From the NCBI GenBank assembly GCA_951230915.1, contig OX579638.1, positions 23,516,696 through 23,580,695 of the forward strand: a stretch of DNA of 64,000 bases. The letters are read 5' to 3'. The DNA comes from Antitrichia curtipendula (lineage: Eukaryota; Streptophyta; Bryopsida; Hypnales; Leucodontaceae). Shown piece by piece: positions 23,028 to 40,429 of this stretch. Made by a program: the position numbers and the translations under genes. Numbering within the stretch: the first letter of the stretch is position 1; each line of letters starts with the position of its first letter. The notes below the pieces were generated by a model that searched no databases, had not been told where the DNA came from, and was given only the letters and a program-made list of their open reading frames with translations.

Positions 23028-24910
23028 ACAAGAATTTGATACTCAAAACCTAAGAAGAAAAAAACTTTGAAAAAACCTAAACCTAAACCTAAACACAAAA
23101 TGTATCTCTAATACAACAAAAAACAACCTCCTCACCACATGCACTACCATTTGCAAAAAGAATAACCAAAAAAACAAATTTACATACCAAAAAATTTAGA
23201 GACAAAGTTCAAGCTCTCCAAGGTCTCCCAAGCTCTTCTAAATTCCAACAAAAAAACACCTCACAGTGATTAAGTCCGCTCAGTAGAGAGAGAATTTTTT
23301 TCTCTCTCCTCCAGCGCCAACAAATGCACTAACATCCCGCTGTAGGGTGGACTAGAGGAGTTTTCTGCAGTAGGGAGTTTACCCCACCGAACCACCCCAG
23401 CCGGGCGAGCTATTGCATGCCTGGGTGGGGCCCGCTTGTGCAACTAGGGCAAACCTCCCTACATGTGCACAAGCCTACTTACGCAGAACAATGAAGAATG
23501 CCCTCGATTTGAGTTTTGATAGAATGCTAAGGTTGATTGCTTTGAGACTTAACCCTTTTACGATAATACCAATGTTTTTGAGGAAAGAAGAAATTGAGTT
23601 TTAGTATGAGAGAGAAGGTATTTTGATCCTAGATAGTACTTATTTAACCTCTAAATGCCCAAGGCCTTTTTTGAGCTTTTAAGAATTTGCTCTAAAGTGA
23701 ACAAAAAGCCAACATTTTGATGAGTTGTATTAACTTTTTTTGAATTGTAACCATACAACTTCAAACTAGACATGTTAGAGATCACATTGTAAAAGAAAAC
23801 ACAATAATATCACTTCATCATTCACATCATTAATACTTCGTCGTCAATAAGTAAGCATTAGAACTTTGTTCTTTTGTAAGCTTAGAAATGGTCATAGTTT
23901 GTTGCTTACACTCAAATCACTAAATGATCTTAAGTTTTGGGATGTGTTAATTTACATTGACACGATGTCCATTCAATCCTTTAAATCCCATGGAACCACT
24001 AATAGGTTTCCGAAGCGAAAAAACCATAAATAACTCATAATCTTAGAGGAATATTTAGATAGCATTCTTCAATATATGTTTTTGTAGGTGATTCTCTAGG
24101 GCCCACATGCCATAATCATGTGGATGAAGTACTAGTAGTTCTATGTTGGCTTAACAATCTCTTGGAATGGTGACAATTGCTTAGTTCGACTAATACATAA
24201 CTTATGAAGGTCTTGTGCAACATGGAAATTGTTTGCGCTTATTTTTTATTATTCTTAGAATAGCATTTTTGGTTATTGTACACCCATTGCTTGCATGGGT
24301 GGTAGTGGTGAAAATTTATCGTAGAGGACAAATTAGAGATTTTCATTCACTCAATCAGGAATGAAAAAGCTTACAAGTTTCTTATCTATGACGTTCTAAA
24401 TGTGGATACATTACTTTCATTAGAATGGGACATTTTCTAAAGTAAGCAGTACTTGAATTTCCATGAAATATTAGTACACATCAAAGCTATGTGGCACAAA
24501 CATTAAGAGCAAGCAATCTGTATTGCTAGTGAATAAATTCCTATAGTAGAGTCCACAAATAGATTATCCTTCAGACTTTAGCTTCAATATATTTCATCTG
24601 GTACTTCAAGTGACTTCCATTACCATGACACTCTAAATTGAAAAAGCAAAATCCATCTATGAAGAAAAGACATGATGCCTGCAATATCATAATTTGCAAA
24701 CTCAATCAATTCATGATAGATTGCTAGATCATATTAGCCATTTCTAAGTGACAAACTCTTCACATGTCACTTCAAGTTAGTGCTCATATAGTGGACACTT
24801 TTTTGAAAGCCTTTCTTTTGGTAACTTATGTGCAATCTATATAGTCCAAATCCTAAGATGTATCATTACAAGAAGACATATAATATTGTTTTGAAGGAGA
24901 TTCTTTAGGG
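23028..24910. other. Gene-free AT-rich DNA
   Basis: The part to about 23440 is GC-richer and may be the flank of the Harbinger element. From 23450 on it is AT-rich, with no recognisable gene, RNA or clear repeat structure. Confidence 0.5.
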
Positions 24911-24930
24911 GGGTGAATGCAAGAAAGACC
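24911..24930 (+). repeat. Left terminal inverted repeat of the 12.9-kb element
   Basis: GGGTGAATGCAAGAAAGACC, identical to the reverse complement of 37770-37789. Confidence 0.85.
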
Positions 24931-25641
24931 GGCCAAAAAGTAGCGTTTTCCATAGTACTCATAATTTTTTGGGAGTACTATATAATTAGAAAAACAATTT
25001 TAAGAAAATCTGAAAAATATGTTCAATGTATACACCTTTAAGAAGAATTTATCCTAGGAAGGAAAAGCATAGAAAAATTATCTAAGTAGGAGAACTGGAA
25101 AAGTGCAAAATCTCATGAAAATAAGTACTTTCACATTTTAATTTGTAAAAAATAGGAAAAACAATTTTTAAGGAAACTAAAAATTGTCCATTTGGGAGGA
25201 CTTTATAGGAAAGACATTTCAGCAAAATAATGATCTTGAAACAATTTTGAATGTTTAGAACTGCGAGCGCAAGGGAGCCCTGTTCGCACGTTCGCACGTA
25301 TGGAGGGCATAAAATAAAATATTTTAAAATTTCCTTTGGTAGAAATATGACTTCCTACTATGGGAATAGACTATAGAAATTTTAGATCTAGATCATTAAG
25401 TTTGGATACTCCCAAGTACTAAAAAATCCTAAACTGCAAAGTGTGACAAATTAGCTAAATTGAAATTTACATATAAAATGATTTTTAAATTTTTTTGAAA
25501 AATAAGGGATCTAAAAAAAATTAGGTTATCCATCTCTAAGAAAAATTTCAAGTTAATTGGATTCATTCTTCAAAAGTTATAGCCGATAACAAGTCCGACA
25601 CGTCAAGTGTGACAAAAAATAGTACTAGTCTTTCTTGCGGG
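24931..25641. repeat. 711-bp insertion in the left arm, dispersed-repeat related
   Basis: Separates the 20-bp TIR from the GATGCTAGT/GTGAGC block that follows it immediately in the right arm. From about 25170 to 25620 it is a diverged copy of 49290-49735 (shared CTAAAAATTG, CAAAGTGTGACAAATT, CTTCAAAAGTTATAG). Its right edge carries GTCTTTCTTGC, an inverted 11-base core of the TIR. Confidence 0.65.
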
Positions 25642-25690
25642 GATGCTAGTTTGTGAGCTTGTGAGCGTGAGCCTGTGAGCCTCCATTTTT
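25642..25690 (+). repeat. GTGAGC array, left arm
   Basis: GATGCTAGT followed by GTGAGC units (TTGTGAGC, GTGAGC, CTGTGAGC). It matches the inverted array at 37678-37765. Confidence 0.75.
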
Positions 25691-26311
25691 TTATCCATTT
25701 AGTATTCCTAAATTTGTTCAAGTCCTATGACCGTGGAAATAAATGTAAGGATCTATAGTCCAAATGAATAACAAATGAATATATTCCTATGAGATTTTGC
25801 CCTCCAGAATTGAACCATTCTATTTTTTTAAAATGAAATATTATAAAATAGGAGGTTTTTGAATGTAACACATAATGAAAATAGGTGTATATAGTGGTTT
25901 AGAATATCTCAGTACAAGATATATATTAAAATAATACAATGCAACATAATACCAAAATTTTAAGGGAACATTTATCAATTTAAAAATAGAAGGGACAATA
26001 AATATGGGTTGTAGAGATTGAATATAAATTGAATGATAGGCAAAATTTTACAAGCATTAGAGCATGAACAATGGTCTTGAGCTTATAACTAAGTGATAAA
26101 TGTAGTCTTAATTGTTGACCTTCATGTAAATTTAATGAATGAATCATAAGCTCAAGACAATTTGGGCATAGACAAGCTCAAAGGCAATGTGGACATGAAG
26201 TGAAGTTGAAGGCCATCAAATGGAATTGTTGCCATTTGCCACATCATGCATAGTTAGATTTAGTTAAACAAAAAGTAAATAGAAATCAAATATAAAAGCA
26301 TGAAATTGAAC

Positions 26312-26543
26312 TCAAATATCGTCTGACTCAGATGCACTGAGTTCGAAATAAGAACATACTCTGGGATCATAAGATCTATGAGGTGATAAAGAGATTGAAG
26401 ATGAATCAGATGAAGCATCAACATAAGCTAATGCTAAATGTTCGGCATAAATAGGTAGGCCACAAGGACTCAAAGAAAGACTTCTAAGAAATCCAGGATG
26501 TCGATAAAAAGGCAAAGTGCGTCTTGGTGATGGACTCATCCAA
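26312..26543 (-). other. Possible alternative last exon of the ParB-methyltransferase gene
   Basis: A GTGAGT donor at 26648-26643 and a TTTGCAG acceptor before 26543 would add this stretch, but that junction reads two codons and then a stop. In another frame it is open (MSPSPRRTLPFYRHPGFLRS.. to SASESDDI), with Ser/Asp-rich composition like the preceding exon. It may be 3' UTR or a differently phased exon. Confidence 0.3.
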
Positions 26544-26640
26544 CTGCAAACAACAAATCATATGTTTGAGTATATATTAACAAATTAAAATTCAAAATAC
26601 AAAACTTTGAATCGAAATTATTGAAAAATAAAAATAAAAC

Positions 26641-29600
26641 TTACTCACATAAGTCAAGTAGTTCGACATCTTCAATTGGAGAGTCATCATCAATCTCCAT
26701 AGCATCATCCGAGGTAGTAGAATCAAGAGCCTTGGAGATGATTGTAGGTGTTTGTAATGGCTTCAGTACCTCATCAAAGAGCTTGGCATCACTTTCTAAT
26801 GCTAAAATATGACGATTAGATGAATGAGCTGCTTTGATGGAAGAACCTGTATAAGACAATAAATTGACATTACAAATACATTAGAATTTAAGGGTAGATA
26901 GAAAAATCAAATTAGAAAATACAAAAAATAATGATTCAATGATATAGATTACAATACCTGTAGAGGCAGTCATGTCTGCCACAATACCACTTGTAGGGGT
27001 CAAGCCATGAACAAAAAGCTTCATGAGAACCTTTGACTTCTCCTTAGCACCCCTCCATGGCTTGCCATCTTCCTTTCTACGTGATTGAGTTGTCGTCGTA
27101 ATAGTGTTGAAGAGGACGTCATCTGTAGTTAAATCAACCTCAGGAATTGAGGGATCAATAGAAATCTGAAGCTCTTGAGGTTGCCTAGCAATGGGAGAGG
27201 CAAATGATCGAACCAACAACAAAGCCTTGAACTTCAAAGTCTGCAAATCAAAATTAAAACCAAGTTAGATTGTACATTTAAACGCAAAATTCATTATAAT
27301 AAAAGACTTCAGTGAATTTGAGAAAATACTGTTCAAGTCCAGTCCACCTGATCTGCACCAGAGATTGGAAAACTGGAATGTTGAAGTGACGATAACTTAC
27401 TCAGATTTTGTCCAAACTGGGCATATGAGGTGTTTTTTGACATCTACAGAATCACTTCAACATTCCAGTTTTCCAATCTCTGGTGCAAATCAGGTGGACT
27501 GGACCTGAACAGTATTTGAAATCAGAGATTGGAAATAACGAATATGGTGTTACTTGAAATCAAAATAAATGACATCTACAAGTGAATCAAAGCTAAAAAC
27601 AAAAGATTGAAAGTAGTACTTACAAATTTGGATGGATTCATAGGATTGGCCAAATGTAAGCAATTTATGATAGTCCACTCATCCTTGATCTTCAACTTGT
27701 AGTTCTTGAAGAATCCAGCCACTTCTCTCTTCACTGTGGAACTGTCAGGATAAAATAGAAGAAATGCTCCATCATCATGAAGATAGGTAAGAGAGAATGC
27801 CATCATTACTTGGAGGAAACTTGGAATGCTAGCATTCCAATGAGGAATTTCAGATGATGGATTTGAAACCCCTGGAATTGGAAGACCATCTGGATATTCT
27901 GCAATGATGAGGTCTACAGCTGGTCTCTTTTGGATTTTGCCATCAAAAAAGAACTCTCTACCTTCACCAACCTGTAAAGATAAATTTCAAAAATGTTAAT
28001 TCATAATAGAAGATGTCAATGTCAAAGAAGAACAAAAATGAGAAGATGTAAATGATGTAGAATATGTAAGATTACATAACAATCAAAATGAGATGGAAAT
28101 AAAACAAATAAACTAACCTTTGAGAGAAAAGCCACAATGTTCTCATATGGTACTCCAAATGTACCATTCTTCTTTTTTTCTTCAATGATTCTAACAAAAG
28201 AATCGTTCAAGATTAGATCAGAAGATGTATGATTGGTAGACAAAGGAGCCAATGTACTCCTCATACCTTTAAGCTTGGGAGGTAGCTCAAAAATAGGAGA
28301 GGAGGTTGGTACTAAAACCACGGGAGTAGAAGACGTCTTCTGGCGCTTTAAAGCAGGGAGTGTAGCTTCAACATTCGAAGATGAAGGTCCAGTAACCACA
28401 AGGCTCTTGATAGTGTCTTGAACTAGTACATCTTCACTGGAATCATCAAGTTCAACCACCAACTTCTTTAACCTGGTCTTCCTGGTCTTCTTGGTTGCCT
28501 CCTTATCTGCTTTCTTAGGAACATCTATAGCTGTACCTTTGAAGGCGGGCTCAATAGAATCTCGAAGGACAATATCAAAAGTTGGTGGTCTTTTGAGGGG
28601 ACAATCCAAATACCACCCACATTTTTCCCAATGTATGGGATCCCAAGATGCCATGATCCCCTCTGTGAACATACACTCTTCACTTTCTTTGTCCAAATAA
28701 TTGGCAAAGAAAGTGGGAGTCTTGGAAATGGCTTTGGCAGGGAAGAGGACATACTTGAAGTATCTATAAAGCACCCTTTGCATGGCTGACTTGAAGTTGA
28801 GTTGCTTCTCTATCTTATTATTCTTGTGAACCCCCTTATCCACAGCAAACTCACGGAAAAATGCAGTATCCCATAACAATATGCGCATAGTCTCCACATA
28901 ATCAAAAATGGTAGGCAAAGGATCCATACCATCAGGAAGATAGTTAATAGATACGTCCAAATCAGCCACTGTAGCATTGAAGAGTTTTTCGGTCTCAATA
29001 GCCAACTGCCATGCACATAAATTGTAAATTAGAAGAATGTTTTGATTGATCCACAAGGTTCAAAGAATACACCATATTCATTGTAATGAAAGACTTTAGT
29101 GAATTTGAGAAAATACTGTTCAGGTCCAGTCCACCTGATCTGCACCAGAGTTTGAGAAACTGGAATGTTGAAGTGATGATAACTTACTCAGATTTTGTCC
29201 AAACTGGGCATATAAGGTGTTTTTTGACATCTACAGATTCGGTAGATGTCAAAAAACACCTTATATGCCCAGTTTGGACAAAATCTGAGTAAGTTATCAT
29301 CACTTCAACATTCCAGTTTCTCAAACTCTGGTGCAGATCAGGTGGACTGGACCTGAACAGTATTTGAAATCAGAGATTGGAAATAACAAATATGTAATGA
29401 ATATAATGTTAGAATTAATACTAAAACTATAGGAAAGAAAGATAAGTACTTACTTGAGCCCACCATGTAGCTTTATGAAGCCACTCTGGAAATTCAAGGT
29501 CACTGAATTTTGGTTTAGGGAACTTGAGAGCCTCACGAAGAGAAGGAGACTTGTTCCATCTCTCAAGCCACTTGATCTTCATGGAAGTATCCATTGCTGA

Positions 29601-32600
29601 AGTTGCCAACATCCAAAGTTTCTCTTGGGTCATTTCCGGATTGTCGTCATGAGTTTCATAGTGAAGCTTGACTTGCTCCAAAAATGCAATCGTATGTTTT
29701 GGATCTGCAATGGGAAGCTGCTTCTTCAATTCGGAATGAAAAGCCACCTTGACCTTATCAATAGCTTTGGAGACCCACTCAGAAACTGCAGTTGAAGTCC
29801 AATCCGCGGAATCGGGATACTTTTCATAGAATTTTCTTTGAGCAGCAGCAGCAGCATCCCCCAACTCTTGCTGCACAACGTAAAGAAAATTTAAAAATAA
29901 ACATAAATGTTCATGAGAACAAATGTTTTGCATAGGAGAACAAGGGATATGAAATCAAATCAAAAAGAAGAACTAACGTCAAGAAGCCTAAACATTCAAG
30001 AAAATATGAAAAGTAGAAAAGGAAATAAAGAAGTAAACCTGGTACAAGACTCCATTTAGAGCCTCAATAGTTAGAGTGAACCAAGTCCTGTGTTTTGATT
30101 TTTGTTTGGCTTCAGCTGCAGCAAGATCCTCCTTAGAAACAAGTTTCTCAAAATACGACAGTGGCTGCCCGGCAATATTATGAATGCGATAGAGCTTGTG
30201 AACAAGATTTATGGAAACATGGGACTTCTGGTTTCGCCTGCCAAAACAAAATTTACTATATTAAATCATATAAATTAAACATTCAATTAAAAGAAGGTAG
30301 GACATAATGATTCAAAGTGAACAAACATTAGAAACAGAAGACTTGAATAAAATGGAAATTCATCAAGGATGATAAGGAAATACCAATTGACTTCATGTAA
30401 TGCTGTCAATGTAGTTGCAACATCCCCTTTGACTTCCAAAATGATACTTTCAACCGCATAATGCCATTGAAAGTCGTCCGTATGATCTCGGTTGATAAGA
30501 AGTAACCATGCTTGCAAACGATGGTTTCCATCCCATACCATGAACATCTTGCCAGAGAAAACTTTGAGATCTTCATCGTTTTGCAATTCTCTCTCAAATG
30601 CAGCATTTGCTCTCAGCCAATTTGGACTCCAGGTTTTGATAATGTCATCCGTGACATCCACTGTTTTCCCTTCATTGTTCTCCAAGGCAACATAGAAAAC
30701 GCCATTTCCTTCCATATAACCACAAGTAACAAAGTGTGCAGCTAAATTCATGACATCATTCTTCAAGAAAGGCCTCACCACCGGTAGAGATATCATACGG
30801 CATAAAGGAATGTTGATCTTTGATTTAGCTCGTGGTTGATACCTCAAGCGCTCAAGACGAGAAGAAGTATTCACAGTCTCCTTCTTCAAAAATCCATGCA
30901 ACTCTAACTCAAGTTGATTTTGAGAAAGAGGCTCAAGTATAGCATTGACTCTTGGTGCTTGTGGATCTCCTTCTGCCGGCATCCCCAAAACAATGTATAC
31001 ATAAAGATTAGAAGAAGTTTTGGTGGAGGCCCAAGAATTTTCAGCATAAAATGACATAGATAACATACATTCATAAGCAAATGTGTGTCTCAAAAAGTGT
31101 GGCCGTCAACAGCTGGGGTCTAAGGTTTCCTAGAAAATTTCAGATTTTGGTAAGCATTGAGGAACATAGCATACATTCATAAGCAAATGTGTGTCTCAAA
31201 AAGTGTAGCCGTCAACGGCTGGGGTCTAAGGTTTCCTAGAAAATTTCAGATTTTGATAAGCATTGAGGAACATAGCATACATTCATAAAAGAATATATGT
31301 CTCAAAAAGTGTGGCCGTCAACGGCTGGGGTCTAAGAAGTGTCTAAAAAATTTAGCTTTAGACAAATATAGCAATGTAGTATATTTTGACAAGCAATTTA
31401 TGTCTCTAGAAGCATGGCCATTAACGGCTACGGCCCAAGGTCACAAAGATTTCAGCATTTGATCAAATCCCTAATGTTGTATAGAGCCAAAAGAATTCAG
31501 CATTAGCCTAAATCCCTAATGTTTCGTAGAAGGAAATGTATGTCTCAAAAGTGTAGCCGTCAACGGCTGGGGTCTAGGAAGGCTCACGAAATTGTAGCAC
31601 CTTGATTCTGAAATTAGAATTCCGAAAATTGTGTCCGTTCAAGGCTGTTCATTAGAGAGGAAGAAAAGAGCCGAAAAAAACGCAGCCGTTAACGGCTGGG
31701 GTCTAGGAAGGCTCACAAAGTTCTAAACTGGAATGCAGAAAAGCGTGGCCGTCAACGGCTGTCCATTAGAGAGGCGATATTGAACGCAAAATAGGATCTG
31801 AAAAAGTGCAGCCGTCAACGGCTGGGGTTTAGAGAGGGCAAAAAAATTAGCCACGCACCTGGATTGGCTTCATTCGGCGTACTTGCTGTCCTCTTCTCTT
31901 CCTGGATCGTCATTTCTCCATGCTCATCTCCACGCTCCAAAACCGCCGCATCTCCCGCAGCAGCCTCTCCTGCAGCCTCCCCTTCCTCCATCGTGAAAGT
32001 TTCTTCCTCCGGTACCTTCAAAGTTCAAAGACAATGTGCGAAGAAACCACAAGGTTTAGGTGAAAGCAAGTGTCCAAAAAAAACAAAAAAAAAAACAAGT
32101 ATAAAATTGGTAGATGTATCTCAAAGGAATCATGCAAAGAATTTTTTCAATTTTCAAAATTTTAAGCCAAATTTTTTTGTACTTGTAGATTCTTCAGGTC
32201 AGAATTACTCTGATTTTTTTCAAATTTCTTGGACACTCGAGCGATTTTACAAAATTCGCCAATAACTGCTGAAAATCAAAAGGCTAGATTTGGCCTCAAA
32301 ATCAGCGGATTTTGAAGATTTCAAGCCAGATTCCAAGATGCCGTTTTAGTTTTTAGGCCGTAAAATACTCAATATGCATCCGTTTTTTCCGTGCTATACA
32401 CCGTTGGAATTGGGATTCCGACGCGTACAAAATCATGTCAAGTTCCTAGAAATCTGGCTCGCTAAAATTTTCACATACTTTCTCATTTAGCATTGCTTGG
32501 AAAAATTATTTACGTACCATTCTGTTTGTAACTTCAAGCTCCATCTCCAACTCTAGCGTTGGAAGTAAAAAGTGCTCATGCTGTTGTTGTTGATGTCCTT

Positions 32601-32928
32601 CTCCCCTGTCTTCATTTTCTTCTTCTTCATCAATGTGTTCATCACAATCACTATAGCTACACACAATCTCTGGTTGAGCTTCACAAGATGTATACCCAAC
32701 TTCTACAATATCCTCTCCTATTGCTTCACATGGACTTATATCTCCGTAAGTCAAATTCCTCGTTGAGCTTGACAAATCAGCTGTACTAATTCGGGACAAT
32801 CGTCTAATCATTCTAGCCCTTAACAATTGCTTCTTACTCGAATAACGAAAGCTACTTCTCCTCTTCTTCTTCCTCTGTGGAACTTCACTGTCCAACACTA
32901 ACAATGGAGGAAGCAATTCCTCTTGCAT
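26641..32928 (-). CDS. ParB/sulfiredoxin-like domain fused to a beta-class DNA methyltransferase-like domain
   Basis: Exons (minus strand): 32928-32518, 32015-31859, 30972-30384, 30237-30039, 29870-29454, 29005-28118, 27971-27624, 27240-26958, 26846-26641; phases agree and the product is about 1,165 aa. Residues ~1-189 are charged and low-complexity. A ParB-like domain spans ~233-345 (RYQPR, INIPLCRMISLPVVRPF, FMVWDGNHRLQAW, the DGxHR motif). A long helical, Lys-rich middle follows. A permuted methylase domain spans ~900-1130, in beta-class order: catalytic motif first (VDLIIAEYPDG, where DPPY is expected), LHDDGAFLLFY, then the SAM-binding motif (GIVADMTASTG, where VLDPFAGSG is expected), IKAAHSSNRHILALESDA. 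The tail is acidic. Fold matches are by eye. The altered DPPY and FxGxG motifs suggest lost or changed catalysis. Uncertain points: exon 2 uses a weak AAG acceptor (translation could start at 31991 instead), and the 3' end may splice to 26543. Confidence 0.75.
27325..27517. repeat. Intronic foldback element, copy 1 (shortened right arm)
   Basis: Starts AATACTGTTCAAGTCCAGTC and ends with the inverted copy (..GGACTGGACCTGAACAGTATT). The right arm lacks about 60 bp of the sequence present in the left arm. It lies in the intron between the exons ending at 27624 and starting at 27240. Confidence 0.85.
29112..29364. repeat. Intronic foldback element, copy 2 (near-perfect 253-bp palindrome)
   Basis: The arms are inverted copies over about 120 bp each, with a short centre near 29230-29245. 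It is closely related to copy 1, including flanking bases (AGTGAATTTGAGAAAATACTG on the left, ATCAGAGATTGGAAATAAC on the right). TGTAATGA occurs at 29082-29089 and 29393-29400, a candidate 8-bp target duplication of the whole unit. Confidence 0.85.
31063..31830 (-). repeat. Array of nine palindromic 14-bp motifs in an intron of the ParB-methyltransferase gene
   Basis: Motif consensus AGCCGTYAACGGCT, usually followed by GGGGTCTA. Positions: 31101, 31207, 31313, 31416, 31555, 31633, 31684, 31747, 31810. The 31684 copy is a perfect 14-bp palindrome (AGCCGTTAACGGCT); four others (31207, 31555, 31810 and, with G for A first, 31313) have only the central T/C change. The first three units are part of ~106-bp direct repeats (CATTCATAAGCAAATGTGTG.., GTTTCCTAGAAAATTTCAGA); later units are spaced 51-139 bp. 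The array fills most of the intron 31858-30973. Confidence 0.9.
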
Positions 32929-33579
32929 CTGAAATAATCAACTATCAAGGCATTACAATATCAACATCTACCATACTACATCACACCCTCTTCTGAACTT
33001 ACATTTCTATCTACTACTTCCTCATGTCCTGCAACCTTTTATATTCGATGAGACTTCAACAACTTCTTCCTACAAGGATATAAGTTCATTTCATGACTAC
33101 ATAATGGCTACTTCTATTTGCTACTCATCATCATCGATTACAATATTCTCGACCGGCCACTAAATATATTATTATAATTGTAAACGTGTCCTACATCGCC
33201 ATCAACTCTACTGCTTGACGTCTTGACGTCTATTGTCAGTGACAGTTTTAACATTGCCAACTTGATTTAATTCATATTGATATCTTTCATATTGTAATCC
33301 ATTTATTACTGGTGATGTGCTAATTGATACCATACAATACGCCATCTTACCCAACTCCATTTCACCTACCTCTTCTATATCAAATCTTGATACGGTATTT
33401 ATTCATGACCATTCAAATTATCAATCCAATTTCAAATTTAGTACATCCATGAAAAAAATTTCATTCAGTTTGAACAACTCTATTATTGTTCCTTTTAAAT
33501 TCACGCCCTTTACACTCGTAAACATCATTGCTTACTTCTTCATTCTTCGTCTCTCTTCCCATTTTTTTAATGCTTCGCT
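32929..33579. promoter_or_regulatory. Divergent promoter region of the 12.9-kb element
   Basis: This 651-bp stretch separates the two start codons. It holds a direct pair TGACGTCTTGACGTC (33216-33230), bZIP/CRE-type half sites. A likely 5'-leader intron for the minus-strand gene is seen: GTAAGT donor near 33002-32997 and TTATTTCAG acceptor directly before the ATG at 32928. No clear TATA box was singled out. Confidence 0.5.
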
Positions 33580-36500
33580 ATGGCTAGTATTGTTGCTAAA
33601 GGTCATGATGTCCCATTTCTTCTACCACTGGACAGTCAAGGTATTGTTCGTGTGCTTACCCATCTTCTTCATGTCCGGTTTGGATTCACCCCTTCTTCTA
33701 TTATTGTGGAGGAAGAACTCCAAGGAGATGACGGTGTTGTTACGGGGTCTATCTTACAATCAAGGTGTACTGATCATGAAGGATTCTACTGGCTTCTTCC
33801 TGCTGGACGCTATAGAGTTTATGGTCTCCTGTCGGGGCTCTTACCACCTTCAACTGAAGGATTGACACTTACTTCTGATAAGTCAAAGGGACAACACCCA
33901 TTACCACGTCTTGTAAAAGTGGAGTCCCTAGGCAGTGGATGCTCCGAGAACACAATTGCGTTCAATATCAAGCGTGAGTCTATAGAATCTGTCATTGAGT
34001 TGTCTAGCGATTCTGAAGGTCAAATGCCGATTAAAGTTTGTCAACCTTCTTCTTCGAATGTTCATTTCCCACGTATGGTAGATTCATCCATTCCTACTAT
34101 CTTCCATAGTACACTTAGTAGTCCAGCATCGTCTGGATTTTCTCGTCCTCCTCTCCCCCCCAATCATCGCGATTCTTTAACCGTATTAGAATGCCTTCGC
34201 AAATTATCTTCAGTGCCTGGTTCACGAAACGAACTTGCCCAAATTGATTTTGATGCCATGGACTACCACAAGGTTCAGTTTCTCCCGACTAGATTTGATG
34301 GTAATGTTCTTTTTGAGCTACCACCTTCTCGTGGTTCCACATGTGGGGCTAGAGGCATGGAAGGTATGGACAAGCGATATGATGGTCATACATGGTGTCG
34401 CACCATGACATCAAACATCCATAATGACTTAGGTTTGAAGTTTAGAAAATCGCATTGTGTTGGGCACTTGATCTGTGAAAATACAAACTGTGACTACCGC
34501 ACACGAGCTCTGAAAAGCAATGAATCTCAGTGGATTGGGACCACCAAACATCCTTTTAGCGTAGGTCAGATTCCTCCTCCTGACTCTACCGTGCTCTGTA
34601 AAGTTTGTAAACAACCTTCTGTTTGTCTCAATCTATGTAACTCGAGAATTTATTATGTACTTAGAACTGGAGAATTGTCACGTGCATGCATCCATTTGGG
34701 TGTTCATTCACATCCTGTTTCTGATGGTCAATGTAGAGAGTCTCTTGAAGCAATAACTAGTCTAATTGCTAACGAGGTAGCTAAGACTCCAACAGCCAAA
34801 ACTTCTGCCATTACCTTGGCAGCAAGCAAGGAATTCCTTGACACGTTTCTTATTCACGATGGGCCTGGACCAAAAGAGATGCTTCATGGTGATGCGTTAG
34901 AGAATGTCATGGATAAGTTCAAGCTCCTTAGCTCACCCAATGTGCGCAACATTGTTTCCTCCTTTCGGAACAACAATAAAGGTGTAGGCGAGATTGATCG
35001 AATTCTTGACATGAAGGGACGTGCCAAAATGGAGTACATCCACGATAGTGTATTTCCAGGACAAGGACAAGATAAGGTCTATTTATTCAAGATGCTTGTG
35101 AATGGACCTGGAAGTGGAGTGGATCTTGTGCAACGGATGCAACCAGGCGGCAACCTTGAAAACTGTTTTATCATGTTCGATCATGTCAAGAGAGTGAAAT
35201 TATGGACGACTATTGCTTGTCACGTCTATGATGCCACTTATTGTAAAGTCATGACCATAGCTGTATGTGATATGCAGACTGAAGGCACCGAAGGCCAGAT
35301 CATTTTTAGGCATTGTTTGAATAGGGTCATGGTCAAAAATGGAGTGTCAAATCCTAACTTCAAGGGATTTATGTGTGATAGCGCTCAAGCCAACTTCAAT
35401 GCTATTCGCATTGTGTATGGGTCAGGGGATCCATCTGTTCCAATGGTGGATCGTGAAAGGACTTGTTTGTTCCATTGGGCGACAAGCATGCACAAGCACA
35501 CAGAGAAACTAATCTCCAAAGAGTTCCAAAAACAGCATATCCGACTCTGCAGGCAGTATAAGGATGCAACGTCAATGGCTGAGGCAGAGAAGATGTATTT
35601 AGAAATTAAAGCTTGGTGGTATTCTTCTGGAGCTGCATTAGAACCGGCTATCCGTGAACTTGAGGACTGGCTAGCATTTTGGCACTTTCGATATCGTCAA
35701 TGGGGCGCATTCATGGATACGGTATGATCTCTACTTTCATAATTTGGTTTTCTAGTTTTTATTCTACATCTTCAATGTTTTAAATAATGACTTCATTCAA
35801 TATATTTGCAGAAATTGACAACAGAAGAATTAGCAGATATTCCAACATGCAATCTTGCAGAAACTATGCACAACAAATGGATGCAAGCTTCAGGAAAGCG
35901 TGGATCTGATTTGTTCATTGCCACATGTGATGACTGGGTTCAAGCCTTCATGCAAATGACCAACTACAGAGCTTATCTTTGTGGGGGCCCTTCCGGAAAA
36001 GGCCCCTCTAAAGAAGATTTGAAATTGAAGAGGGCTATGGCATCTGGAGATGGGAAAAAAATCGCAGACGCACTTAGTGAGATGCCTGGAGCTGAAGACG
36101 TTTGCACTCGAATTCCGCATTTGGAGGGTGAAGAAGTATTTGGGTCTAGCAAAAGGAAATTAGATCTTCCAATTGGTTCTCATCGCCCTGACAAAGTAAA
36201 CTTCTCTCATCTTCAGGTTCAAATTAGATCAGCTACTGGTAGAGTGCAACTTGGGTCTGCAGTTGTAGAAACTAATACGGTTTTATCCCATATCCAATCT
36301 GTCATGGAAACTGATTGCGATACATCAGAATGGCATATAGCGAGACTTTCTCACAAGTCAAGGAAACAGTGTCATGCCATTCAAAAGTATACACAAGCCA
36401 AATGCAAGCTATTGATTGTTAGGCATGGAATATCCACTGCTGCCCCTACTTATAGAGGACAAAAGCGTGAGTATAAGGGCACAGCAGTTCAAACTGAGGA

Positions 36501-37182
36501 TTTCTGGTTTTGTGCAGACCAAATTGCACGATGCGTCATGGGACCTAAGCGTTCCCATGTTCTTACTCGACCTGAGATCCCTGAGATTTGGCCTGTTCTT
36601 ATTGGTACAAATCTTAGTCGTACCGAAATTATAGAGTTTGAAGAAGCTGGGTTTCGCTTGCAATCTAGCATTCCGATGTCACCTCGACGGCTATTTACCT
36701 CATCTAGAATATTTGAGCCCATGTTGTGGACTCATCCTCGACCAGCACATGCTGAAAGAATTCCTTCTATTCGGAATGGCAAGCAAGTTCGTCGGAGCAG
36801 TAAGGCCCCCACCGAAAATCACCGCAATCAGTGGGAGAGTGCAAGGAATGTTACAGCAAGTATCACTGGAGTGAACTTCCTTCCTTACCCTGGACTTGGT
36901 GCCATTATTACACTTCTGTCTGGTACTGAACCTAATCAAAAGGTTTATAATATCACGCTTTCAAATTTTCCATCTTGTACATGTCCTCATTATGGAGGTA
37001 TGAATGGAACTTCCATTGGAAAGCGTGGTATGTACATAAACTGCAAGCATCTTTATTACATCTTTCGTTACTTTTGCAAATTGAATTACAAGACAGACAC
37101 ATTCATCCACGCTCCTACCTTGAGTTCGGATGAAGTTAAGCAAGTGCTCGTTGCTGCCGGAATCATCAAGACATGCGAGTGA
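33580..37182 (+). CDS. Transposase-like protein: GCM/WRKY-type zinc finger, RNase H-like core, SWIM finger
   Basis: Two exons, 33580-35721 and 35812-37182, joined in phase 0 across a 90-bp GT-AG intron, give 1,170 aa with no stop. Residues ~1-240 are Ser/Pro-rich. A Cys/His cluster at ~270-380 (HCVGHLICENTNCDYRTRA, CKVCKQ, RIYYVLRTGELSRACIHLG, HSHPV) resembles the GCM/WRKY zinc fingers found in MULE-type transposases. Residues ~530-640 look like the RNase H-like core (MFDHVKRVKLWTTIACHVYD, FKGFMCDSAQANFNAIRIVY, CLFHWATSMHKH). A SWIM finger lies at ~1100-1130 (FPSCTCPHYGG .. NCKHLYYIF). The catalytic Glu was not assigned. It is probably the element's transposase, moving DNA between its TIRs in the nucleus; an exapted host protein cannot be excluded. 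Start ATG 33580 is the first in frame after the divergent promoter. Confidence 0.8.
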
Positions 37183-37677
37183 AGTTAGTGAACAAGTTAG
37201 TTGACTAGTATTAGCATGATATGAAGTACATCTATAGTACCAATATTTTATCTTCAAAATTTTCATATATGCAGATTATTATACTCATATTTCAATATCT
37301 ATTCTTTTTTGCAATGACAAAATATTTTATTATCTGTAGGATGTTGAATTCTTTTTGATATTTTCATTGTATTTGTCTTTTTGTCAATTTTAGAATTCCT
37401 TTTGGATTAACTATTTGTACTTTCACTTTATAAGCCTATTCTAAGACAGACTCTGAAGATGTGATTTAAACCATTAAACTTGGATATAAAATTTGAGTCT
37501 ACAATAGCACCAACTTTTTAGGCTTTTAAATCCACGGTCATGGGTCCCATGGCAATAGGACATATTTTCAAAAAAAAACTTTGCTAACAAAACCTCAAAT
37601 TTTTTTCCTTTTTAATTACAAAAAATTAGAAATTTCTCCAAAATTCAAATTTGTAGACTTCAGGCTCACGCAATTCT
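37183..37677. other. 3' flank and sub-terminal region inside the 12.9-kb element
   Basis: AT-rich, non-coding. It contains TCCACGGTCAT (inverted match to the left arm ATGACCGTGGA at about 25727) between the transposase stop and the right GTGAGC array. Confidence 0.55.
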
Positions 37678-37765
37678 TGCTCACCGCTCATAGGCTCACG
37701 CTCACCGCTCATAGGCTCACGCTCACCGCTCATAGGCTCATGCTCACATGCTCACATACTAGCGT
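37678..37765 (-). repeat. GTGAGC array, right arm
   Basis: On the plus strand, three units of GCTCACCGCTCATAG, then GCTCATGCTCACATGCTCAC. In reverse complement this is the GACGCTAGT plus GTGAGC series seen in the left arm. Confidence 0.85.
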
Positions 37766-37769
37766 CGTT

Positions 37770-37789
37770 GGTCTTTCTTGCATTCACCC
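37770..37789 (-). repeat. Right terminal inverted repeat of the 12.9-kb element
   Basis: Reverse complement is GGGTGAATGCAAGAAAGACC, identical to 24911-24930; followed by AGGG. Confidence 0.85.
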
Positions 37790-40429
37790 AGGGCTGACAA
37801 GTCTTGTTTCTCTTTCAAAAAGAAAAAGGACCGAGCTTAAACTATTTTTTCTTCTAAAAAAAATGGAGTTTTTTAATTATATTTGAACCTTTTTGTTTTT
37901 CTTCCTATTTATTGTCAAGATTTAGATTAATTGTTAGTGAATTATTTGGGGTGACCTATTGAAATTTTATGAGGGTCTTGTTAAAGGAAAATAATGACCT
38001 AATCGGAAATTATATTTTTAGTATAATAAGTTTGTTTCAAGGGAGACGGGCAAGTAGATAATCTATGCTAATAAGTTTTATATCTAAAATCAAAATATTT
38101 CAACTTAAATTCAATAATCCAATTTGAAATTCCATAGCCAAAATCATTACTACAACGACACTACAAACCCAAGTTGGACTTGGCCTGGAAAAAAATTGTT
38201 CAACTTGAACATCCAAATTGGTGACACATTTGCACTTAATGACACTCCACTCTTACACGCATCTCAAATCAACATAAACACATACACAATCAACTTCTCT
38301 TGAAATAAAATTATATTAATTGAATTGGTGAACATATCACCGTTACAAGTTTTTCAATTAAAATTTCCATTGACTCATCAACTTCCAACTTCTTCCCCAC
38401 CTTGGACACTTAATTAGTTCTTCATCCAACTAGCTTTCTACTCCATAATGAATTGGTTATGAGTGCTAATTGGTTATGAGTGCTAATTAGTTCTTCTAAA
38501 ACCAATTAGCACTCATAACCAATTAGCACTCAGAAAGTTCTTTGTCACACACCATAGCATTCAAATTTCCTTTGATTTTTCATCACAAACTCCAAAACTC
38601 CATAACACTCATTCACTCTTCACACAAACAAAAGAAATACACAATCAACTTAAGGCTGGGACACACATTGGCACTCTCAACAATGGGTGATTTCCAAATC
38701 GGGAAGACAAACCTAATAGGAAGCAAGCCGGCAGTTATCAGAAGGAAAGGAGACAACCCAACTACCATCCAACTACCAAATTGAAATTATTAGCAAACTG
38801 CCAACTCAAATTGCCACTAAAGCCTAATTCAAATCCAAATTAGAAAATTTAAACTACTGAGCTAGCAAGCTCACCACTTGCATACTTACCAACTTGATTA
38901 TCATCCTATAAATTTGAACCAAAAAAAATCCCCATTTGGGTTAATTAAAAGTTCATTCTCAAAACCACTAAATTGGATACAAAACTACAAAGAAAACTAC
39001 TAAAATGATGTAAAAACACACTCCATATCACACAAAAATTTCAAAAATTCATTCCAAATAGGTTTTCTACAGGTCTACTAATGCTCAATTTCCAAAAAAT
39101 ACAAAATATGGACAAAAATATTTAAATTTTGCTAAAAGAAATAATATTTATTGTTAATTATTTTTTTTAAAAGTCACCTAATTCATCTTTTTAACAGCAA
39201 TAGATTTTATTGGACAAAACAAACACCTTTAATATATTATTTAGTATTGCAATATATTCATATGCTAATACTAATCACCATCAAACTAATGTAGAACCAA
39301 TTGAAATTTGTGTTTGCCAAAACCTTAAGGAGTACAAGTTAGAGCCAAAAGTGAGGCTTTGTGGCATGAGGCCAGAGTATGAACTCAACTAACTAAACAA
39401 AGTTAATTCCAATTTTTTTTTAATTTCATCTTAAATTTTTGAAGAAGTTAAATTGAAGGTAAGTAGGCAACACCTTGAGAGCCTAATGTCAAGTACATTT
39501 GCACTTTAATTTAATAATAATTTTTTATTATGAGCTTAAAAAATATATTAATTAGACCACAATGTTAACTTACCACTATTAACACCATTTTTTGCTAATT
39601 GTTTTTTGTAAATTATGATAAGGATTTTAAAAAATATTTTGATTTTTGCAAATAATTTATTTAGGAAAAATATAAATTTTACTTACATTCTTTTAATTAT
39701 GAAAAATAGAGGTTCATCTAAGAATCTAAGTACATAATGGAAAAATATCAAAAAAATTATTTAATCAATATACCAAACTAATGACGCATGACTAGGTGAT
39801 AATATGATTTGTTTGTTAAACCAAGTTTCATCTTTGCAGTTTCTTATAAATAGTGGTACTAGTTGAAACTTCTAAAAGCATGAGAAGCCAAAGTTTGTAT
39901 TGTACAATTTGTTCTTTATACAAAGTAGCTACTAAGCCTAATTTTTATTATTATTATCAAACTAGTCAAATTTTCAAATTTTTTGGTTGGCAAGTGGAAG
40001 AAGGTTCCAATGTGACGTCATTGATTGCAAGATAATAGGACTTGAAGTTAGAAGGAAATATTTTTTCTTGAAACTACCGCAACATAGTTAACAAAGTTTG
40101 ACTCCTTTTAGGATGTGATTTGAGGACTATAATTTATTTATTTTTGGACAATTGTATGCCATATTTTATTAGTTACATACATGCCAAATTTCAAAAGTTG
40201 ATGATCTTTTATGCAAAAGATTCTCCAAAGATATTCCAATTGCCTAAGTTGCTCTAAAAGTTCAGGGCAACATAACTTTTGATTCGGGCATCCGATAAAA
40301 AAAAAAAAAATTCACGAAAGAGGTAGATGTTTATACATCGTGTCCAAATTTCATGAACATCCAACCAAAATTGACTTTTTAGGAGCCTACTTGAGATTTA
40401 TTACATAAGTCAAACAAACAATCGGTCCT
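37790..40429. other. Gene-free AT-rich DNA
   Basis: No coding region, RNA gene or recognisable element apart from the hairpin at 38451-38532. A perfect TGACGTCA palindrome at 40013-40020 has no gene nearby. Confidence 0.5.
38451..38532. repeat. Compact inverted repeat made of 23-bp units
   Basis: AATTGGTTATGAGTGCTAATT occurs twice in tandem, then twice inverted (AATTAGCACTCATAACCAATT) after a ~14-base spacer, so the whole can form a long hairpin. Confidence 0.85.

Follow-up and report, generated by a model that had tools for sequence, protein, structure and literature searches.

In a 64,000-nucleotide stretch of the genome of Antitrichia curtipendula (contig OX579638.1; hereafter the window), we find a two-gene Mutator-like element of 12,133 bp that has inserted into an older, ~736-bp element, generating a 10-bp target site duplication. 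One of the two genes encodes a transposase. The other lies on the opposite strand, is under purifying selection and encodes a protein, here called the partner, that resembles ParB-like proteins weakly in one part and DNA methyltransferases in another. The element also contains an array of palindromes that is nearly confined to elements of this family. We think it probable that the partner is an accessory protein that binds the element's own palindrome array and thereby holds or marks its chromatin.

The ends of the element are defined by comparison with its other copies. Copy C10:5.68M starts with CGGGGATGCTAGTTTGTGAGC, preceded by CTTTTTTGCA, and ends with CTAGCGTCGTTG, followed by CTTTTTTGCA, without the left part of the older element. 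Both true ends could be located in 10 of 12 copies, the window included, and all 10 are flanked by duplications of 9–10 bp (element bases were excluded in measuring these lengths; the longest shared string reaches up to 14 when they are included). For the other two copies, the left end lies outside the stretch fetched. The nine other copies with both ends begin CGGGGATG and do not contain the 727 bp that precede this position in the window. The terminal inverted repeats (TIRs) are imperfect (CGGGGATGCTAGTTTGTGAGC and CAACGACGCTAGTATGTGAGC); their presence fits the Mutator superfamily, as do the target duplications, which are 8–11 bp in that superfamily. The proposal, made from the window alone, that this DNA is a multicopy DNA transposon is borne out by the 10 copies with both ends and duplications.

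Both genes are found together at many loci. Searches of the genome with the partner protein gave at least 121 exon matches, which fall into 40 loci when grouped by eye, and searches with the transposase gave at least 80 matches at 40 loci; as the best 42 of 3,579 and the best 40 of 3,058 candidates were scored, respectively, the locus counts are lower bounds. Among the matches listed, a transposase lies within 20 kb of 24 of the 40 partner loci and is divergent from the partner gene in all 24. The spacing between the matched parts is 4.3–4.8 kb for 22 of these pairs and 2.6 and 3.6 kb for two in which another exon served as anchor. A second lineage, represented by 11 loci among the matches listed, has transposases that are 61–63% identical to that of the window. 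In both second-lineage neighborhoods that were inspected (C7 and C1), a divergent partner gene is present, the ends are similar, and the target duplication is 10 bp with one mismatch (C7) or 9 bp (C1). The C7 partner protein is 32% identical overall to that of the window, and its gene, the one copy modeled in this lineage, has a similar exon pattern, with two of the window exons each split in two. The original prediction had raised the possibility that other copies carry the same divergent pair, as these 24 loci and both second-lineage copies do. Fourteen partner loci with no transposase within 20 kb among the matches listed, which belong to subfamily 2 or are more distant (L064 and L065 among them), may be partner-only or decayed elements.

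The partner gene is under purifying selection. Comparison of the window gene with seven subfamily 2 copies gave ratios of nonsynonymous to synonymous substitution (dN/dS) of 0.12–0.33 at dS values of 0.47–0.67, and 22 close partner loci gave ratios of 0.20–0.74 at dS values of 0.010–0.023. Since the ratios are pairwise and include the decay of dead copies, they tend to understate constraint. This selection argues that the protein is a partner of the transposase and not baggage. That role, one of two suggested originally for the methylase-like gene, is further supported by its linkage to the transposase at 24 of 40 loci among the matches listed and by its retention in the second lineage.

Transposases of the Mutator superfamily combine a DDE/RNase H-like core with a WRKY-GCM1-type finger and a SWIM finger. 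The plus-strand gene encodes a protein with a GCM-type finger at about residues 262–380, aspartates at 534 and 600, a glutamate within NLAETMHNKW (728–737) and a SWIM-like CxC..CxH motif (1103–1132), the D, D, E and SWIM residues having been assigned by eye. A GCM domain is its top structural match (probability 1.00, E 2.6e-3). The protein looks like a GCM-finger, DDE, SWIM-type transposase, as the original prediction had it, by structural match for the finger and by eye for the other motifs. Because neither the full transposase nor 20 members of an exon-1 alignment matched the Pfam MULE or SWIM models at E ≤ 1, we call the element Mutator-like and not a member of Mutator. Both genes are large and, in our splice models, intact, as first described: they lack internal stops, and all modeled introns are GT-AG (nine exons on the minus strand, two on the plus strand).

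The partner protein carries DGNHR at position 192, AEYPDG (the motif IV position) at 766 and DMTASTG (motif I) at 947, an order of motifs, IV position before I, that we take to be that of beta-class enzymes. The least certain part of its gene model is the first exon (31991–31859). A database search turned up one relative, P0001 of Riccia sorocarpa, which aligned with a fifth of the query at 27% (E 1.7e-13). In the C-terminal part, CcrM-type and N6/N4 methylase models matched the second-lineage protein (CcrM, 2.7e-6; PF01555, 1.4e-4) better than the window protein (phrog_3008, 3.5e-5; PF01555, 0.075, or 0.0062 for a piece). In the N-terminal part, the second-lineage protein gave matches that are below cut-off or weak to DndB (3.8e-4), DGQHR (2.7e-3) and a ParB phrog (0.11). 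The motif I for binding S-adenosylmethionine (SAM), D.TASTG.SI...RHILALE.D, is present in both lineages; it reads D.TAST in both, is altered in four subfamily 2 copies and had no match in two stretches. At motif IV, neither DPPY nor NPPY nor SPPY occurs in the Riccia protein or in any of 15 scanned stretches, which represent 14 copies because one was covered twice, and the variants are AEYPDG, AKYPDG, AKYLDG, DVPEG, DVPKG, NINDG and DMPTG. Of the features of PF01555-class enzymes, then, the protein has the SAM motif I but not the catalytic motif IV (D/N/S)PP(Y/F/W). The description of this gene as a ParB-methyltransferase gene is right in that one part is methylase-like and another weakly ParB-like, and overstated in that no copy read has DPPY and no ParB model matches above cut-off. 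Two introns of the gene contain similar foldback segments with similar flanks (window 27324–27517 and 29111–29365), the second having 127-bp arms that are 99% complementary with 1 nt between them; both regions align in copy C10:5.68M and may stem from duplication of an intron piece or from a foldback element.

It is possible, although we think it rather unlikely, that the partner is a working DNA methyltransferase, specific for N6-adenine or N4-cytosine, that uses an atypical motif IV and marks the element. Retention of D.TASTG.SI in both lineages and the CcrM-type match of the second-lineage protein (2.7e-6) would be consistent with such an enzyme, and marking has been proposed for the Ectocarpus relative in the available part of its description (PMC12477816). 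However, motif IV is never DPPY, NPPY or SPPY in the copies scanned.

What might the partner recognize? The palindromes of type GCCGTYAACGGC in the window all lie in one array: at two or fewer mismatches, all eight matches fall within it. When the region was subjected to 20 plain shuffles and up to 60 candidate words were tried in each, no more than three were obtained. Eight palindromes are likewise found in copy C10:5.68M and in the subfamily 2 copy L094. In the two second-lineage copies, another palindrome occurs 14 and 15 times, in 13 and 14 cases between the genes. Both kinds share the core CGYYRRCG. Every match to it in the window (6) and in C7 (9) lies in the arrays, as do 12 of the 14 in C1; in 93.6 kb of other loci, the core matched twice and neither full palindrome occurred. 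Exact matches to AGCCGTYAACGGCT across the genome number 95 on the forward and 78 on the reverse strand, perfect palindromes being counted on both strands, compared with none for the reversed control. Among the 76 distinct places listed, which reach C4:22.2 Mb, 71 are within 8 kb of one of 69 family gene loci and five are not; sequence this close to family genes makes up at most 0.33% of the sequence covered. The palindrome is therefore nearly confined to the elements. Given its position, this confinement and the analogy with the VANC proteins of Arabidopsis, the array is likely a candidate binding site for the partner protein. If so, the partner would be found on AGCCGTYAACGGCT arrays and the second-lineage protein would favor TCTCGYYRRCGAGA. 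In one second-lineage copy, a 382-bp tandem repeat (4.8 copies; L086:5542–7367) lies between the genes, the region that contains most of the palindromes.

Another possibility, which we hold to be less than even, is that the array is bound by the finger of the transposase or by a host factor, for transcription or transposition, and that the partner does something else. The transposase does contain a GCM-type finger, and GCCGTTGACGGC contains TTGAC, the W-box core. However, the array is on the 5′ side of the partner gene in both lineages, and the eight copies in the window lie in its modeled intron 1.

Our preferred interpretation is that partner and transposase each recognize a different part of the element. 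The transposase most likely binds the GTGAGC-rich ends, and the 12.1-kb element (25638–37770) would have been cut and pasted into the older, ~736-bp non-autonomous element, making the 10-bp target duplication. The partner appears to be a conserved accessory protein, in which a weakly ParB/DGQHR-like part is joined to a methyltransferase-like part that has kept the SAM motif and lost DPPY, and it most likely recognizes the palindrome array adjoining its gene. Once bound, it may hold or mark the chromatin of the element, and so protect it from silencing or tune its transcription, as VANC does. Here we infer SAM binding, the autonomy of the element and anti-silencing, as well as the identity of the palindrome binder. 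A more specific and decidedly tentative version is a self-recognition system resembling ParB/parS, in which a ParB-type partner, its methyltransferase domain sensing SAM but catalytically dead, would load on the element-specific array, whose core CGYYRRCG would co-evolve between lineages, and spread along the element so that host silencing is kept off. If this were correct, the methyltransferase fold would be a ligand-gated binder and not an enzyme. Although MULEs often acquire extra reading frames (PMC6446971), it is very unlikely that the partner gene is a captured host gene carried as roleless, Pack-MULE-like cargo, since it is under purifying selection and occurs in two lineages that differ by about 38% in their transposases.

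Several observations weigh against a partner that binds its own array. With regard to the protein, no partner protein matches a Pfam or NCBIfam model at or above the curated cut-off, and the DGNHR part of the window protein, the C5 copy and the Riccia protein have no match in Pfam or NCBIfam. Of the 9 fetched stretches that span the site, 6 retain an intact DGNHR, and the structure model of its exon failed (predicted local distance difference test score of 35). Because DPPY is missing, enzymatic activity is doubtful. With regard to the array, the control consisted of a small number of plain shuffles, and part of the palindrome count reflects duplication, since the array sits in tandem repeats. 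No palindrome was found in copy c2 (12.5 kb, without a transposase) or in 5 kb of C5, and it could be the transposase or a host factor that binds the palindromes. Finally, among the matches listed, no transposase lies within 20 kb of 16 of the 40 partner loci; 2 of these are close copies, and the other 14 belong to subfamily 2 or are more distant. Likewise, no partner is listed for 16 of the 40 transposase loci, of which 5 are close copies and 11 are second-lineage loci, although the two of these 11 that were inspected (C7 and C1) do have one. Stops are present in some of the 12 copies and in both second-lineage copies, the C7 gene having two.

Since algal ParB-methyltransferase accessory proteins are described in a published report, the kind of protein is already known (PMC12477816). 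In Ectocarpus, the 21.5-kb Sola1 element Sola1-1_Ec32 encodes a 1,104-amino-acid protein with ParB-like and DNA methyltransferase parts opposite its transposase, and the same report cites green and red algal cases (Iyer et al. 2011; Petroll et al. 2025) and proposes that accessory proteins of this class each bind and modify the transposon that encodes them (PMC12477816). The statement in the original prediction that no described plant transposon has this pair was too strong in view of this case, although its host is a brown alga and not a land plant. The moss element resembles Sola1-1_Ec32 in having a two-part protein of about 1,100 amino acids on the strand opposite the transposase, with domain calls that are sub-threshold here. 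It differs, by description and not by sequence comparison, in being Mutator-like, with duplications of 9–10 bp and palindrome arrays that are nearly confined to the elements, and perhaps in its lack of DPPY. Here, in contrast to the Sola1 element, a ParB-methyltransferase-like gene accompanies a Mutator-like transposase. We did not find the Mutator-like context, the loss of DPPY or the palindrome arrays in the open-license literature, in a search that was not aimed at the last two. As the missing catalytic motif implies, this branch may act by binding and not by methylation. The available part of the Ectocarpus report leaves open what transposon-borne ParB-methyltransferase proteins bind (PMC12477816), for which the palindrome is a specific candidate. 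With many near-identical copies, a second lineage, selection on the gene and a palindrome nearly confined to the elements, the proposal of self-binding is directly testable.

Other systems share single features with this element, as far as the accessible parts of their descriptions go. The VANDAL elements of Arabidopsis, which encode VANC, are also Mutator-like elements with an accessory gene and carry short motifs arrayed in tandem repeats within introns and upstream sequence; as described there, VANC has no ParB or methyltransferase part and the motif is not called a palindrome (PMC5735166). MuDR, with mudrA and mudrB, is likewise a two-gene MULE, a likeness drawn by description only, and its mudrB is described as of unknown function (PMC6446971). 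Transposons with their own DNA methyltransferase occur in dinoflagellates and charophytes, but these are retrotransposons and theirs is a C5-cytosine enzyme (PMC5890265). Bacterial and phage proteins such as Bacillus cereus Bce_0392 fuse a ParB domain to an adenine methylase (PMC5512222); unlike the partner, they are prokaryotic, and the similarity of the partner protein to them is sub-threshold only.

Table 1. Position of the window in the genome and of the features described within it
Feature	Position	Strand	Basis or remark
Window	C6:23516696-23580695		400-Mb genome
Older element, 4-bp duplication AGGG, left	24907..24910		Flank comparison
Older element, left part, including left 20-mer	24911..25637		Sister comparison, rebuilt element
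10-bp target site duplication GTCTTTCTTG, left copy	25628..25637		Copy and flank comparison
Two-gene Mutator-like element, 12,133 bp	25638..37770		Borders CGGGGATGCTAG.../...CTAGCGTCGTTG identical in C10:5.68M and other copies
Left imperfect TIR with GTGAGC repeats	25638..25680	+	Compared with reverse complement of right end
Partner gene, ParB/DGQHR-like and N6/N4-methyltransferase-like, 9 exons, 1,096 amino acids	26312..31991	-	Splice model
Eight palindromes of type GCCGTYAACGGC within tandem repeats	31102..31822		Intron 1/5′ region of partner gene (modeled)
Transposase gene, 2 exons (33580-35721, 35812-37182), 1,170 amino acids	33580..37182	+	Splice model
Right TIR with GCTCAC array, 21-bp tandem repeat 37679-37747	37679..37770	-	Repeat analysis, end comparison
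10-bp target site duplication GTCTTTCTTG, right copy	37771..37780		Copy and flank comparison
Older element, last 9 bp	37781..37789		With 37771-37780 and base 37770, forms right 20-mer
Older element, 4-bp duplication AGGG, right	37790..37793		Flank comparison

The original prediction took a perfect 20-bp inverted repeat (24911–24930 and 37770–37789) as the boundaries of a single transposon of 12,879 bp, with AGGG as its possible target duplication. The repeat is perfect, the span is correct and the pair is not chance: with two or fewer mismatches allowed, it matches the genome 633 times on the forward and 645 times on the reverse strand, compared with 1 and 0 for the reversed control. However, the 20-mers delimit the older element, to which both they and AGGG belong, and the length of the two-gene element is the shorter one given above. 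At 27 of 30 fetched loci with exact 20-mers, we found a single element of 677–740 bp. Of the other three, L020 and L021 overlap as one place, have additional ends and were not used, and L017 had no partner end in the stretch examined. Exact 4-bp duplications of varying sequence flank 24 of these 27 sisters. The majority sequence of the short elements matches window 24911–25638 throughout, into its own right end, the remainder of which corresponds to 37771–37789. When the window flanks were joined without the insert and with one copy of the duplication, the resulting 736-bp element matched 25 of the 27 sisters from end to end (90.9–93.1%) and the other two in part. Base 37770, with which the two-gene element ends, is also the first base of the right 20-mer, and since the sisters mostly have A there, the perfect 20 bp consists of a 19-bp repeat and one chance base. 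The GTGAGC arrays reported beside the 20-mers are real repeats, but the left one is about 740 bp inside the left 20-mer, adjoining the true end at 25638.

That the 12,879 bp form one element, with the 20-mers as its own TIRs and AGGG as its duplication, is highly improbable despite the perfect repeat and the AGGG on both sides, since the nine other copies with both ends start CGGGGATG without the left 727 bp, the left 727 bp and last 9 bp make up a complete sister of the ~732-bp family (25 of 27 from end to end), and the 10-bp duplication is exactly at 25638/37770. We give almost no weight to the converse idea that the ~732-bp elements are internal-deletion offspring of a 12.9-kb element: although GTCTTTCTTG is at both joints, as a deletion between direct repeats requires, 9 of the 11 other two-gene copies have their own, different 9–10-bp duplications without the left part (in the remaining two, the left end is outside the stretch examined), and the short elements are present in roughly 640 copies with 4-bp duplications.

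The ~732-bp non-autonomous family is itself abundant, its copy number corresponding to 1,278 ends genome-wide, and its ends have the form GGG...CCC. Outside the two-gene element, a palindromic short tandem repeat, AATTGGTTATGAGTGCT, is present at window 38451–38535.

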